Below, piece by piece: positions 32,757-60,289 of a stretch of DNA of 64,000 nt. Numbering within the stretch: the first letter of the stretch is position 1; every line of letters starts with the position of its first letter. The stretch is from positions 186,001 through 250,000 of the forward strand of contig NZ_PTJD01000007.1 in NCBI RefSeq assembly GCF_002934625.1, written 5' to 3'. A program made the translations under genes and the position numbers. The notes beneath the pieces were generated by a model, which had not been told where the DNA came from, made no database searches, and saw nothing but the letters and a program-made list of their open reading frames with translations. This DNA comes from Kineococcus xinjiangensis (GTDB taxonomy: Bacteria > Actinomycetota > Actinomycetes > Actinomycetales > Kineococcaceae).

Positions 32757-32763
32757 CCGAGCC

Positions 32764-32798
32764 GCCGGGGCCCGCCGCACCCCGCGGCGGGCCCCGGC
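32764..32798. terminator. Perfect 15-bp hairpin between the two FKBP genes
   Basis: Arms 32764-32778 and 32784-32798 pair perfectly around a 5-base loop, eight bases after the first FKBP stop. It is probably a terminator or attenuator. Confidence 0.85.
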
Positions 32799-32851
32799 GC
32801 GCCGTCCGCCCCGACCCTGACCCCGCACCACCGCACCCCCTGAGGAGAGCC

Positions 32852-37125: not shown

Positions 37126-37164
37126 AGGGCGCCGGCGGGGAGGTCCTGCTCCCGCCGGCGCCCT
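37126..37164. terminator. Terminator ahead of tatA
   Basis: Fourteen-base perfect arms (37126-37139, 37151-37164) surround an 11-base loop. It is the strongest stem between the zinc-ribbon gene and tatA. Confidence 0.8.
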
Positions 37165-43611: not shown

Positions 43612-44484
43612 ATGGGCACGTCCACCGCCGTCCCGGCCCGCCGCACCCGCCGCCGCGCAGCGGGGGTCCTCGTGGCCGGTGCCGCGACCCTCACCCTCGG
43701 GCTGACCGCCTGCACCGGGTCCGACTCCGACGGCTACGCCCAGTCCACCGAGCGCACGCCGCTGCAGGTGGTCAACGCGTCCTTCGAGAAGTCCAGCCAG
43801 GCACAGAGCGGCAAGTTCGCGATGTCCGTGGAGTTCTCCGGTGAGGGCGAGGGCGAGAGCGGCAACGTCCAGGCCGAGGGCGCCTTCGACGGTGCCGCGG
43901 AAGCGGTGGAGATGCGCATGACCGTCGACGCGCCCGGGGCGGAGGGTCTCGCGCCCGTCCTGCGCATCGTCGGCGGCCAGCTCTACGTCTCCGGCGTGCC
44001 AGGCGTGGAGCCGCAGCAGTGGATGCAGGTGCCGCTGGAGCACGCCGACGCCATGGGCATGGACACCTCCCAGCTCGACCCGACCGCGCAGCTGGAGCAG
44101 CTGCGCGCGGTGTCCGAGGACGTGGAGGAGATCGGCACCGCCACCGTCCGCGGCGTGGAGGCGCACGGCTACGCCGGTGTGATCGACATGCAGAAGGCGC
44201 TGGAGATCGCCACGTCGCCAGAGGAGAAGGCCGAGGCGCAGGAGGCGCTGGACGAGGCGGGCCTGCAGAAGGTGCCCTTCGAGCTCTACGTCGACTCCGA
44301 GGACCGCCCCGTGCGCATGGTGGTGTCGATGGACGTCGCCGAGGGCGAGCAGAAGGCGTCGGCGAAGGTGCGCGTGGACTACTTCGACTGGGGCACCCCC
44401 GTCTCGATCGCCGCACCCGCGCCGGACTCCGTCGTACAGGCCCCGGCCGGCCTCCACGAGGGCGCTGACACCCCCGCCGCCTGA
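43612..44484 (+). CDS. Secreted lipoprotein, LppX/LprG-like
   Basis: The 290-residue protein has a signal peptide with lipobox LTAC (Cys34). The mature part has alternating beta strands and helices with 'SGKFAMSVEFSG', 'MRIVGGQLYV'-like hydrophobic strands and a C-terminal VRVDYFDWGTPVSI, which resembles the LppX/LprG/DUF6612 group of lipid carriers. The assignment is by pattern only. ATG 43612 has GAGGAG at 43600-43605. A very strong terminator follows. Confidence 0.75.
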   Translation: MGTSTAVPARRTRRRAAGVLVAGAATLTLGLTACTGSDSDGYAQSTERTPLQVVNASFEKSSQAQSGKFAMSVEFSGEGEGESGNVQAEGAFDGAAEAVEMRMTVDAPGAEGLAPVLRIVGGQLYVSGVPGVEPQQWMQVPLEHADAMGMDTSQLDPTAQLEQLRAVSEDVEEIGTATVRGVEAHGYAGVIDMQKALEIATSPEEKAEAQEALDEAGLQKVPFELYVDSEDRPVRMVVSMDVAEGEQKASAKVRVDYFDWGTPVSIAAPAPDSVVQAPAGLHEGADTPAA

Positions 44485-44497
44485 GCGGGGACCCACG

Positions 44498-44536
44498 ACC
44501 GCTGGGGCGGGCCGCGACGCGGCCCGCCCCAGCGGT
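44498..44536. terminator. Perfect 18-bp terminator hairpin
   Basis: Arms 44498-44515 and 44519-44536 pair perfectly around a 3-base loop, 13 bases after the lipoprotein stop. TGTCT follows. It is among the strongest terminators in the window. Confidence 0.9.
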
Positions 44537-44615: not shown

Positions 44616-46259
44616 GTGAGCGATGGAGCGAATCGGCGCCGCCTGTACCGCGGCGGCAGCGTCTACAGCCCAGCGGACCCCTTCGCCACGGCGATGCTCG
44701 TCGACGGGGACCGCGTCGCCTGGGTCGGCCCCGACGAGGCGGCCGCGGCCCACGCCGGTGACGCCGCGGAGGTGGTCCACCTCGAGGGCCGCCTGATCAC
44801 CCCCGCCTTCGTCGACGCCCACGTGCACACGACCGAGACCGGTCTGGCGCTGGGCGGGCTGGACCTCTCCGGCTGCTCCGGGCCGCAGGAGCTGCTCGAC
44901 GCCGTCGCAGCCGAGGCGGCCCGCCACCCGGGGGCGCCGGTGCTGGGCCACGGCTGGGACGAGAGCGGCTGGCCGCCCGGGCAGCGCCCGCCGAGCGCGG
45001 CCGAGTTGGACCGCGCCGGTGGCGGGGCGGAGGTGTACCTGTCCCGGGCCGACGTGCACTCGGCGCTGGTGTCCTCCTCCCTCGCCGCCCGCGCCGGGCT
45101 GGGCGCGCTGCGCGGCTGGGAGGAGTCGGGCTGGGTGCGCACCGACGCCCACCACGCCGCCCGGGACGCGACGCGGGCGGCGCTGGGGCCACTGCGGGAA
45201 CGGGCCCAGCGGCTGGCGCTGCGCGCGGCCGCCGCGGTGGGCATCGGCACCGTGCACGAGATGTCCGGCCCGCACATCGCGGCGCCCGGCGACCTCGCCG
45301 CACTCGTCCGGCTGGCCGGGCCGCAGGGTGAGGAGCCCCTGCCCGACGTGGTGCCCTACCTGGGGGTGGCGGCCGAGGACCGCGGGCGGGTCGCCGAGGT
45401 GCTGGCCGCTGCGCGCGCCGAGGGGGTGGAGCTCGCCGGGCTGGCCGGGGACCTGTGCGTCGACGGCGCGCTGGGTTCGCGCACGGCGGCGCTGCGCCGG
45501 CCCTACGCCGACGCCGCGACGAGCGGCGTGCTGCACCTGGACGCGGAGCGGGTGCGCCGCCACGTGCTGGCGTGCGCGGGGGCGGGGGTGCAGCCGGGTT
45601 TCCACGTCATCGGGGACGCCGCCGTGGACGTGGTGGTGGAGGCACTGCTGGCGGCGGAGGCGCAGATCGGCGCGCCGGCGGTGGCTGCGGCCGGTGTCCG
45701 GCTGGAGCACGTGTGCGCCGCCGACGCCGAGGCGATCGCGGTGTTCGCCCGGCTGGGGGTCAGCGCGAGCGTGCAGCCGGCCTTCGACGCGACGTGGGGC
45801 GGGTCCGGGGGCACCTACGCCCGGCGCCTGGGCTGGTCGCGGGCGGCGGGGCTGCACCCGTTCGCGGCGCTCGCGGCGGCGGGGGTGCCCATGGCCCTGG
45901 GCTCGGACGCGCCGGTGACCCCGCTGGCGCCGTGGGCGGGGGTGCGGGCGGCGGCGTTCGCGGCGGTGCCGGAGCACCGCATCAGCGTGCGTGCGGCCTT
46001 CCTGGCGCACACCCGCGGCGGGCACCGCCTGGCCGGGCGCGTGGCGGAGCCGGGGGTGCTGGTGCCGGGCGCGCCTGCCAGCTACGCGGTGTGGGAGGCG
46101 GAGGAGCTGGTGGTGCAGGCGCCGGATGCGCGGGTGGCGGCGTGGAGCACGGACGCGCGCTCCGGAACTCCGGGGCTGCCGGACCTCAGCCCGGGCCTGC
46201 CGCTGCCGCAGTGCCGGCGCACGGTCGTGCGCGGGGTCCCCGTCCATGACGAGTTGTGA
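44616..46259 (+). CDS. Amidohydrolase family 3 (YtcJ-like) metal-dependent hydrolase
   Basis: The 547-residue enzyme has the metal-binding HxH in DAHVHTTE near residue 69, GFHVIGDAAVD with a conserved His near 330, RLEHVCAAD, and LGSDAPVTPL with the catalytic Asp. The family hydrolyses amide or ester bonds of diverse small molecules; no substrate can be named. The C-terminal composite beta domain (PASYAVWE) is complete. There is no signal peptide. Confidence 0.9.
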   Translation: MSDGANRRRLYRGGSVYSPADPFATAMLVDGDRVAWVGPDEAAAAHAGDAAEVVHLEGRLITPAFVDAHVHTTETGLALGGLDLSGCSGPQELLDAVAAEAARHPGAPVLGHGWDESGWPPGQRPPSAAELDRAGGGAEVYLSRADVHSALVSSSLAARAGLGALRGWEESGWVRTDAHHAARDATRAALGPLRERAQRLALRAAAAVGIGTVHEMSGPHIAAPGDLAALVRLAGPQGEEPLPDVVPYLGVAAEDRGRVAEVLAAARAEGVELAGLAGDLCVDGALGSRTAALRRPYADAATSGVLHLDAERVRRHVLACAGAGVQPGFHVIGDAAVDVVVEALLAAEAQIGAPAVAAAGVRLEHVCAADAEAIAVFARLGVSASVQPAFDATWGGSGGTYARRLGWSRAAGLHPFAALAAAGVPMALGSDAPVTPLAPWAGVRAAAFAAVPEHRISVRAAFLAHTRGGHRLAGRVAEPGVLVPGAPASYAVWEAEELVVQAPDARVAAWSTDARSGTPGLPDLSPGLPLPQCRRTVVRGVPVHDEL

Positions 46260-46280
46260 CGTCGTCGCGGAGAGTGCATC

Positions 46281-46319
46281 TGTCGTACGGCGTGTCGGGC
46301 TGCGACACGCCGTACGACA
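46281..46319. terminator. Perfect 17-bp hairpin after the amidohydrolase gene
   Basis: Arms 46281-46297 and 46303-46319 pair perfectly around GGCTG. The stem contains CGTACG and is less GC-biased than the other terminators, so it may be more than a terminator. Confidence 0.88.
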
Positions 46320-46400
46320 CGCCGATGCGCAGCTGTGACCTGAGGGGCGGAAGGGGGCGCTGACCTGCGCGAAGACCCCGCGTGACACGGCGTGCATCGG

Positions 46401-46428
46401 TTGACACGCCCGCTCTGCTGAGTAGTTT
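46401..46428 (+). promoter_or_regulatory. Near-consensus sigmaA promoter in non-coding DNA
   Basis: TTGACA (46401-46406), 16 bases, TAGTTT (46423-46428). Transcription should start near 46435, over 350 bases before the next start codon. Copies of GACACG at 46304, 46316, 46384 and 46403 precede or overlap the -35. Confidence 0.75.
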
Positions 46429-46434
46429 CCACAA

Positions 46435-46700
46435 CTAGCCCACGTCGAGGAAGACCGTCCGGCCCTGCCCGCACCGGCGGTGCGCCGCCCCACAGCGCAC
46501 AGCCCCTCGTGGCGCGGCCGAACGGGAGTGGGCGGGGTTGGATCCGCGCGCCCTTAGACAACGGTGTGCGCCTCGTGGCCGACGGGGCTCACGGCGGCCC
46601 GAGGGGCGCGCGGGTCCGGCCTGCTTCTCGCGCAGTCAGCCGGCCCGGCACCACCGGCGGCTGACTGCGTGAGAAGCAGGCTCCACCCCTCTGCCACGGT
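46435..46700 (+). ncRNA. Candidate structured non-coding RNA or lnt leader
   Basis: The range is an estimate: from the predicted start after the promoter at 46401-46428 to just past the 24-bp hairpin at 46619-46681. A smaller GCACC/GGTGC hairpin lies at 46471-46483. There is no good open frame with a ribosome site. No known RNA family was recognised. Confidence 0.35.
46619..46681. terminator. 24-bp hairpin upstream of lnt
   Basis: Arms 46619-46642 and 46658-46681 pair over all 24 positions (one G-U in RNA) around a 15-base loop. It is the longest uninterrupted stem in the window. No long T tract follows. Confidence 0.88.
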
Positions 46701-46779
46701 GGCGCCCCTGCGCCGTCGCCGCCCCTGCCGTGCTGCACCCGGTCGGGGGTGCCTGCCCCCTGGCCGCGCCGCAGGGACG

Positions 46780-46785
46780 TACGCT
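46780..46785 (+). promoter_or_regulatory. -10 box of leaderless lnt
   Basis: TACGCT lies seven bases before GTG 46793. Confidence 0.6.
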
Positions 46786-46792
46786 CGGGGAC

Positions 46793-48427
46793 GTGCCGCG
46801 CCCCGCCGACCGCCCCCTGCCGCTGCTGCCGGCCGCCCTGCTCGCCGCCGCCGGCGGAGGCCTGTCCGCGGCGGCGTTCCCGGGGCTGGGCTGGTGGCCG
46901 CTGGCGCCGGTGGGTGTGGCCGCCCTGGTGCTGGCGGTGGCCGGGCAGCGCCCGCGCCGGGCCGCGCTGCTGGGCCTGCTGCACGGCTGGGCGTTCTTCG
47001 TCCCCCTGCTGCAGTGGAGCGGCGTCTACGTCGGGGCACTGCCGTGGCTGGCGCTGGCGACGCTGTGCGCCCTCTTCCACGTCCTGCTGGCCGCGCTGCT
47101 GCCCCGGGCCCTGCGCGCGCCGTGGGGGCTGGCGCCGCTGGCCGTGGCCGGCACGTGGGTGGCGGTGGAGGCCCTGCGCGCGCGGGTGCCGTTCGGGGGC
47201 TTCCCGTGGGGGCGGCTGGCGTTCTCCCAGGCCGACGCGCCCACGCTGGGCCTGGCCTCCCTGGGGGGCAGCCCGCTGGTGTCCTTCGCGGTCGCGCTGA
47301 GCGGGGCGCTGCTGGCGCTGGCGGTGACGACGCTGGCCCGGCGCGGGCGGCTGGTGCAGCTGCCGGACGTGCGCCTGCCCAGTCGGGGGACCGGTGGGCG
47401 CGCCACCCGCGCCGCGGCCGCGGCCGCGGCGCTGGCCGTGGCGGCGATGGGCGCCGGTGCGCTGCTGCCGCGGCCGGTGGACGCCTCGGAGGGGACCGCG
47501 CAGGTGGCGGCGGTGCAGGGCAACACCCCCGAGCCGGGGCTGGACTTCAACGCCGAGCGACGCGCGGTGCTGGACAACCACGCCCGCGCGACCCTGGAGC
47601 TGGCCCGGGAGGTGCGCGCCGGGCGCGCGCCGCAGCCGGAGCTCGTGCTGTGGCCGGAGAACTCCAGCGACATCGACCCCCTCCTCAACCCCGACGCGGC
47701 CGCGGTGATCTCCCGCGCGGTGGAGGCGGTGGACGCCCCCACCCTCGTCGGGGCGGTGCTGCAGGGCCCGGGGGAGGGGCTGTCCAACGCGGGCATCGTG
47801 TGGCGGCCCGGCACCGGCCCCACGGAGCGCTACGTGAAGCAGCGCCCGGCGCCGTTCGGGGAGTACATGCCCTACCGCTCCTTCTTCCGGATCTTCTCCG
47901 ACAAGGTGGACCTGGTCCGGCAGGACTTCGTGGCGGGCACGAGCACGAGCCTGCTGCCGATGGGACCGGCGCTGGTCGGCGACATCATCTGCTTCGAGGT
48001 CCTGTTCGACGACCTGGCCCGGGAGGCGGTCGCGGCGGGGGCGGACCTGCTCGTGGTGCAGACCAACAGCGCCACCTTCGGCACCTCGAACATGGCGCCG
48101 CAGCAGCTGGCGATGTCGCGGCTGCGGGCGGTGGAGACCGGCCGCAGCGTCGTGCACGTCTCCACCGTCGGCATCAGCGCCCTGATCACCCCCGACGGGG
48201 TGGCCCACCAGAGCACCGAGCTGCTCACCTCGGCCGTCCTGCAGGGGGAGCTGCCGCTGCGCAGCGGGCTGACCTTCGCGGTGCGCCACGGCCTGGCGGT
48301 GGAGCTGTTCCTGTGCGGTGTGGGGGTGCTGCTGCTGCTGGCCGCGCGGCGGCGGCCGAGGGCGGCCGCCGTGGCGAGCGGGCCGCCGGTGGCCGTGGAC
48401 CTCGACGTCCCCGCGGTGCGGGCATGA
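46793..48427 (+). CDS. lnt: Apolipoprotein N-acyltransferase
   Basis: Lnt adds the third acyl chain to the N-terminal Cys of lipoproteins. The 544-residue protein has about six N-terminal transmembrane helices, a nitrilase-like catalytic domain and a final C-terminal helix. The catalytic triad is visible as Glu in WPENSS, Lys in YVKQRPAPFGEYMP and Cys in GDIICFEVLFDD. GTG 46793 fits the leaderless -10 box. Several lipoprotein genes in this window encode likely substrates. fxsA overlaps the stop codon. Confidence 0.93.
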   Translation: MPRPADRPLPLLPAALLAAAGGGLSAAAFPGLGWWPLAPVGVAALVLAVAGQRPRRAALLGLLHGWAFFVPLLQWSGVYVGALPWLALATLCALFHVLLAALLPRALRAPWGLAPLAVAGTWVAVEALRARVPFGGFPWGRLAFSQADAPTLGLASLGGSPLVSFAVALSGALLALAVTTLARRGRLVQLPDVRLPSRGTGGRATRAAAAAAALAVAAMGAGALLPRPVDASEGTAQVAAVQGNTPEPGLDFNAERRAVLDNHARATLELAREVRAGRAPQPELVLWPENSSDIDPLLNPDAAAVISRAVEAVDAPTLVGAVLQGPGEGLSNAGIVWRPGTGPTERYVKQRPAPFGEYMPYRSFFRIFSDKVDLVRQDFVAGTSTSLLPMGPALVGDIICFEVLFDDLAREAVAAGADLLVVQTNSATFGTSNMAPQQLAMSRLRAVETGRSVVHVSTVGISALITPDGVAHQSTELLTSAVLQGELPLRSGLTFAVRHGLAVELFLCGVGVLLLLAARRRPRAAAVASGPPVAVDLDVPAVRA

Positions 48428-60252: not shown

Positions 60253-60289
60253 CGCGCCGGACCGGGTTCCCGCGACCCGGTCCGGCGCG
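60253..60289. terminator. Perfect 15-bp terminator of the Nramp-like gene
   Basis: Arms 60253-60267 and 60275-60289 pair perfectly around a 7-base loop, eight bases after the stop on the minus strand. The rest of 60058-60252 shows nothing I can name. Confidence 0.85.

Follow-up and report, generated by a model that had tools for sequence, protein, structure and literature searches.

A candidate structured RNA gene upstream of lnt in Kineococcus xinjiangensis with a core hairpin conserved in Actinomycetes

Described RNAs and the locus upstream of lnt

Orphan large structured RNAs such as raiA and OLE are conserved, can stand alone and have a function that is not evident from their context. The 6S-like Ms1, for which a hairpin structure with a bubble at its center and two short hairpins at the ends is given, adjoins a HAD hydrolase gene and is listed in Table 4 of its source for Kineosporia and Angustibacter, not for Kineococcus (PMC9130861); the Streptomyces coelicolor Ms1 (scr3559) is encoded at another locus than the one considered here (PMC9130861, PMC11077062). 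The Lnt RNA motif (RF01711) was named after lnt and comes from Chlorobi (PMC2864571). Nine conserved intergenic regions with a promoter, a terminator and an RNAz signal that are not annotated in Rfam have also been reported (PMC11678152).

The locus analyzed here lies in a 64,000-nucleotide stretch of K. xinjiangensis DNA (the window), in which positions 46260–46792 separate an amidohydrolase gene from lnt, both on the plus strand. The RNA predicted from this intergenic stretch shares with Ms1 (scr3559, MTS2823) its independence, its actinobacterial setting and a length of roughly 200–300 nt. It differs in being flanked by Amidohydro_3 and LNT_N genes, whereas Ms1 has a HAD hydrolase or morphological-differentiation neighbor, and, with Ms1 compared by its description only, appears to differ in consisting of two tandem hairpins with another core instead of a bubble hairpin. 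6C RNA and the other actinobacterial sRNAs of Rfam are likewise independent and built of hairpins, but none of their models matches here at threshold. With the Lnt motif the RNA shares the association with the name lnt, and it differs in phylum and in the lack of a model match. RaiA, OLE and similar RNAs serve as work-alikes, with no relation in sequence or structure according to Rfam.

Rfam 15 returned no family at its gathering score in the window or at 39 loci from relatives (the RNA is present at 36 of these), and the models for 6S RNA (RF00013), 6C RNA (RF01066) and the Lnt motif had no match in the same set. The preliminary description of this DNA had recognized no known RNA family at the locus, and the search agrees with it. 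Several sub-threshold matches were rejected, namely mir-3130, found twice on a 24-bp hairpin (E = 2e-4 and 6e-4; 30–32 bits against a gathering score of 95), and, with E values up to 5, mir-3957, mir-343 on locus L007, MIR9666 on locus L149, a viral pseudoknot, an lncRNA model and Caulobacter CC1840 (E = 3.9). The possibility that the streptomycete sRNA scr1434 is the same RNA was set aside by gene number only (ppm1 is SCO1423). No description of the RNA was found in the open literature, in which an unnamed entry in a Streptomyces supplementary table is possible.

Consensus promoter and terminator scans of the locus gave no matches. A 51-aa frame (46509–46664) overlaps the covarying stems and has a non-coding look, as judged by eye in the family alignment. 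The window contains five perfect inverted repeats that are 14 bp or longer (loop 3–20), against none in three mononucleotide shuffles. One of 18 bp with a loop of 3 (44498–44536) lies between a gene that appears lipoprotein-like by eye, ending at 44484, and the amidohydrolase start, and is probably a terminator. Others of 14–16 bp lie at 32763–32799, 37126–37164 and 60253–60289.

Predicted RNA and its conserved core

With 46255–46800 as the query, a DNA search matched each of the 11 remaining family genomes (E = 2e-31 to 1e-18). Weak matches (E = 5e-5 to 1e-3), a part of them perhaps genuine, were seen in 8 of 47 genomes from the same order. The conserved block in the family alignment begins upstream of the promoter and stops at 46621, and the promoter, start and stems align across all 12 family sequences (Table 1).

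Table 1. Positions of genes, control elements and predicted RNA features in the window
Feature	Position	Strand	Remark
Amidohydrolase gene	44616..46259	+	Upstream neighbor; Pfam Amidohydro_3
Box array	46291..46323		CGTGTCG (46291–46297), CGACACGCC (46303–46311), CGACACGCC (46315–46323); forms the "17-bp hairpin"
32-bp palindrome TGACCTGC-N16-GCAGGTCA	46361..46392		Window keeps left half-site only
−35 element TTGACA	46401..46406	+	8 bp past palindrome position
−10 element TAGTTT	46423..46428	+	16-bp spacer from TTGACA
Predicted RNA, ~187 nt	46435..46621	+	Start inferred from promoter, end from loss of conservation
Hairpin A (5' domain)	46438..46533	+	Closed by GCCCAC/GUGGGC; varies between families
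Hairpin B	46536..46621	+	Class-wide conserved core; model R2 and covariation
Internal loop, 5' side	46554..46564	+	UUAGACAACGG in window, GUAGACAACGG in most relatives
Apical hairpin CCUCGU-GGCCG-ACGGGG	46571..46587	+	
Internal loop, 3' side	46595..46604	+	CGGCCCGAGG in window, CGGNCCGAAGG in most relatives
24-bp hairpin	46619..46681	+	Between RNA and lnt; 22 consecutive pairs in fold; not conserved
Leaderless lnt −10, TACGCT	46780..46785	+	7 nt before GTG at 46793
lnt, apolipoprotein N-acyltransferase	46793..48427	+	Pfam LNT_N, CN_hydrolase; neighbor, outside RNA gene

The alignment of the 12 family sequences (A1, 192 columns) has two tandem hairpins as its consensus. With its 61-pair structure, 91.5% of cells pair, compared with 88.1% after shuffling (reached by 0 of 500 shuffles) and at most 44% with slid partners; because the structure was derived from the same sequences, A1 favors it on this count. 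Pairs with double changes number 14 against 8.6 in shuffles (0 of 500). The count of further pair types, a weak measure of covariation, is unremarkable, being reached by 115 of 500 shuffles.

The preliminary description had drawn attention to two other hairpins, and the test of conservation and covariation went against both, whereas other stems of the same predicted transcript passed it. The first, a 17-bp perfect inverted repeat with arms at 46281–46297 and 46303–46319, is present as described. It is not conserved as RNA. The inverted and direct CGACACG boxes that form it hold fixed positions relative to the downstream promoter, so a DNA element is its best reading. The 24-bp hairpin does occur within the originally predicted transcript; it is not conserved and sits 3' of the conserved RNA, where it is possibly a terminator or spacer. 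Region 46436–46800, which includes it, folds below dinucleotide shuffles with z = −6.3, and 46260–46436 with z = −2.8. Of the 12 stretches that separate the RNA from lnt, 3 (window, L005 and L012) fold at z ≤ −3 against mononucleotide shuffles, and these are unrelated in sequence. The two hairpins were accordingly rejected as functional RNA, the conserved part lying between them.

A covariance model (R1) was built from A1, which contains only sequences of the window's family, and it detected hairpin B at 12 of 80 named lnt loci with E < 0.01. These lie in other groups, including Kineosporia, Pseudokineococcus and Streptomyces, and all are upstream of lnt on the same strand. On the window's other strand, R1 gives a weak score as well (E = 0.028). 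The conserved letters of hairpin B are those of its internal loop, UAGACAACG / CGGNCCGAAGG, whose consensus contains an AGUA/GAA pair that we take to resemble the sarcin–ricin (bulged-G) motif. A strict pattern of this loop occurs in 139 of 394 genomes of the class, at most once per genome, and never in the reversed control. When a sample of the phylum was searched, the pattern was found in 9 of 296 genomes, all within the class, with one match in the reversed control; the 270 genomes outside the class had none.

Alignment A2 comprises the core in 66 sequences, including the window, supports three helices and is the basis of a second covariance model, R2. In A2, 87.2% of cells are paired compared with 68.8% in shuffles and at most 47% with slid partners, and there are 245 double-change cells against 91 (0 of 500 shuffles). 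The number of pairs with double changes, a weak measure, was reached by 50 of 500 shuffles. R2 scores 68.5 bits on the window, itself a row of A2, as the sole match in its genome. It matches 42 of 60 Actinomycetes genomes, covering 36 of 49 genera and 25 of 34 sampled families (our count); 19 of the 60 contributed rows to A2, and 23 of the other 41 match (our count). The remaining 18 of 60 genomes had no R2 match, the RNA being absent from them or beyond detection. The match is single copy in 40 of the 42 genomes. The two others are G068, with a weak second match, and G079, with an equal-scoring second place on another contig. The weak one (G068:C25:39503-39582, E = 1.3e-5) is a possible paralogue.

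Outside the core, the 5' domain is variable both in its length (124–223 nt, median 184, at strict-core loci) and in its sequence, and an GCCAGGTCC-like motif was found in it at 43 of 69 loci, compared with 4 in shuffles. AGAAAAC replaces AGACAAC in the diverged forms L195, L196, L044, L045, L048 and L049. At L195 the 5' domain, read by eye, is nearly absent, from which hairpin B may be the minimal unit.

The reach of the RNA across the class was not visible in the preliminary description because that worked from one sequence only. Its claim of a candidate new RNA has held up, supported by conservation, covariation, the conserved promoter and the lack of a threshold match in Rfam 15. A conserved promoter and covarying stems, as expected of an independently transcribed RNA, were both found, and the stretch is very probably an independent structured RNA gene.

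Promoter and control region

The sequence TTGACA-N16-TAGTTT, put forward in the preliminary description as a near-consensus promoter, is present, and the promoter is conserved in 12 of 12 family sequences, though TAGTTT is a weak −10 element. A strict sigma-70 scan reported no site at the locus, so the assignment rests on comparison and not on consensus. In the alignment, all 12 sequences carry GTTGACA and G(A/G)GTAG(C/T)(T/G)TC. Across the class, TTGAC-N16-20-TAnnnT was found upstream of the RNA at 46 of 69 distinct strict-core loci, compared with none when each was shuffled once, and GTCCA follows within 22 nt 3' of the −10 element at 34 of these 46 promoter-bearing loci.

Of the 12 family genomes, 9 carry the palindrome upstream of the −35 element in intact form, each with a single site that lies at the RNA locus. 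In the class, its pattern occurs in 71 of 384 genomes, and the reversed control gave 13 (our count), so some matches are due to chance. Fifty palindrome loci were examined, 30 taken automatically and 20 picked by hand. R2 finds the RNA at 38 of them, 16 of these 38 coming from genomes with rows in A2. The gap between the palindrome (32–33 bp) and TTGACA is exactly 8 bp at 36 of the 38 RNA loci; one has 9 bp and one has TTGACT. Among the 12 palindrome loci with no R2 match, only L195 has the 8-bp geometry, and a short diverged hairpin is seen there by eye. The palindrome also led to diverged RNAs at 15 of 16 loci that were fetched by hand from family f45 (R2 E of ~5e-6 or lower). From this arrangement, we infer that the palindrome is an activator-type site of a dedicated DNA-binding factor.

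The arrangement CGACACGCC-N1-5-CGACACGCC is found at the RNA locus in 11 of 12 family genomes, one of which has a further site at another place. CGACACG or CGTGTCG occurs within 160 bp upstream of the palindrome at 36 of 53 loci, compared with 4.3% of shuffles; most of these boxes lie near −46, −58 and −69, and 17 of the 53 loci have none. The motif of WhiA has been reported as GACAC (PMC3781837). WhiA as a binder of the boxes would be only a lead, since the likeness extends over five letters, and L060, which is the single locus from a named Streptomyces in the set of 53 palindrome loci, has no CGACACG upstream.

Association with lnt and possible function

The 95 distinct RNA loci, 81 with lnt, form a biased set, many having been found via lnt. 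Fifty loci fetched by the RNA pattern (the 30 best and 20 chosen for diversity) were considered by themselves. In 42 of these 50, lnt lies downstream on the same strand, ~1 kb away in a few. The RNA is kept without lnt in seven, with the next gene converging in two; the remaining locus, L134, ends at a contig edge. At L144–L148, from the streptomycete-like family f37, the amidohydrolase gene and the RNA stay and lnt is gone; at L144 the next gene, on the same strand as the RNA, encodes a ppm1-like Glycos_transf_2 protein. The RNA converges at L158 with ABC transporter genes (Pfam identifies an ATP-binding subunit, and the permease was recognized by eye) and at L159 with a TauE gene on the other strand. 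At L195, lnt is missing downstream while the diverged short RNA stays, and the next gene is ppm1-like by eye. A further observation concerns Kineococcus rubinsiae, in which an lnt copy (L037, 3501–5045) on a 26-kb contig has unrelated upstream sequence and no R1 or R2 match; it is possibly a second lnt.

The strongest alternative is that the RNA is a regulatory 5' leader, either an attenuator or a riboswitch, of an lnt-ppm1-fxsA operon, sensing a signal and controlling read-through into lnt. The ancient synteny, in which 42 of 50 loci have lnt following in the same orientation, favors this, the large conserved internal loop is riboswitch-like, and the same-strand gene at L144 indicates that the RNA could lead another gene where lnt is absent. 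Nevertheless, a leader would belong to the mRNA of the downstream gene in every genome, and the convergent genes at L158 and L159 show otherwise. As lnt is lost or the next gene converges at some loci, the RNA can stand alone, unlike a pure leader. Moreover, lnt appears to have its own promoter downstream of the RNA. The preliminary description had proposed a leaderless one, and the leaderless-type TACGCT-N7-GTG is indeed there. An in-frame TAnnnT-N5-8-start was found at 41 of 81 lnt genes, compared with 1.45 (at most 7) in mononucleotide shuffles, and by the same test the box was not found at the other 40. Finally, R2 matches 21 of the 80 lnt loci at E of ~0.001 or lower, 14 of them rows of A2, and found no RNA in the fetched DNA of the other 59. 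On this balance, a leader is unlikely, and the old tie to lnt may still matter for the role of the RNA.

Somewhat less likely again is a base-pairing sRNA acting in trans, in which C-rich loops, GUCCACC and GCCAGGUCC would make antisense contact. The GTCCA conserved close to the 5' end (34 of 46) and the GCCAGGTCC-like motif (43 of 69 against 4 shuffled) would suit such contacts, but the most conserved letters form the internal loop of a stable hairpin and not an open seed, and the 5' domain is nearly absent at L195, as read by eye.

The length of ~190–300 nt, the mostly single copy and the conserved, regulated promoter would also fit a 6S- or Ms1-like RNA that binds RNA polymerase, as would the genera listed for Ms1, which include Kineosporia and Angustibacter and not Kineococcus (PMC9130861). 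This is improbable to a slightly greater degree, given that no 6S model matches at the Rfam threshold, that Ms1 adjoins a HAD hydrolase gene and not lnt (PMC9130861), that the consensus fold gives two tandem hairpins and not one rod with a central bubble, that the internal loop is conserved in sequence, and that in S. coelicolor Ms1 (scr3559) is encoded elsewhere (PMC9130861, PMC11077062).

That there is no RNA, the GC-rich hairpins being terminators or DNA sites conserved by their neighborhood, is very improbable: GC-rich stems are common and the window's prominent hairpins are not conserved as RNA, but covariation, the slid controls, the conserved promoter and the conserved unpaired loop letters speak against it.

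In the best overall explanation, to which we assign a probability of about 0.6 from the comparative evidence, a dedicated activator controls an independent structured RNA that acts in trans. This evidence consists of the conservation, the covariation, the geometry of promoter and operator, the mostly single copy and the persistence of the RNA without lnt. Counting against its independence is the very old synteny with lnt (42 of 50 pattern-fetched loci), which could mean a role in cis. Further points against the explanation are the leaderless box missing at 40 of 81 lnt genes, the variable 5' domain, the 18 of 60 genomes in which the RNA was not found, the half-lost palindrome of the window, the two weak covariation measures and the opposite-strand score of R1.

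In this explanation, a promoter with a consensus −35 element and an upstream control region (box array and palindrome) would drive an RNA of ~190–300 nt. A factor on the palindrome, directly upstream of the −35 element, would switch this separate transcription unit; the notion of a dedicated activator draws on the 32-bp palindrome, a single-site element in the genomes of the window's family. Hairpin B would form the 3' end of the RNA, and the large, asymmetric internal loop of this hairpin, AGUAGACAACGG / CCGGNCCGAAGG, nearly invariant throughout the class, would be the working part. The RNA is predicted to act in trans, with its loop bound by a protein or by a large complex, for example RNA polymerase or the ribosome. 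Binding of the loop to a protein is suggested because the loop is nearly invariant inside a stable hairpin, and this trans-acting, protein-binding mechanism is plausible at somewhat less than even odds. A contextual hint comes from S. coelicolor, in which the FxsA-family gene SCO1422 is described as a direct target activated by CutR and linked to secretion stress (PMC10433416, PMC5882110). SCO1422 is numbered next to ppm1 (SCO1423), and the CutR ChIP peak was assigned to SCO1422.

What is novel here is the RNA family, with no threshold match in Rfam 15 and no description found in the literature searched; stand-alone structured RNAs as a kind have precedent. The class Actinomycetes includes the main antibiotic producers. 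A near-invariant, mostly single-copy core and a palindrome at fixed spacing in many groups point to a basic function missed by annotation. Tentatively, and as a reading that we consider possible but not probable, this may be an ancestral RNA of Actinomycetes, overlooked in model organisms including Streptomyces, which a dedicated DNA-binding activator has as its chief or only target and whose loop docks onto a core component of the cell, tying the lipoprotein and mannosylation status of the envelope to gene expression. The outcome is a covariance model, a promoter and an operator of fixed geometry, which can be tested in Streptomyces.
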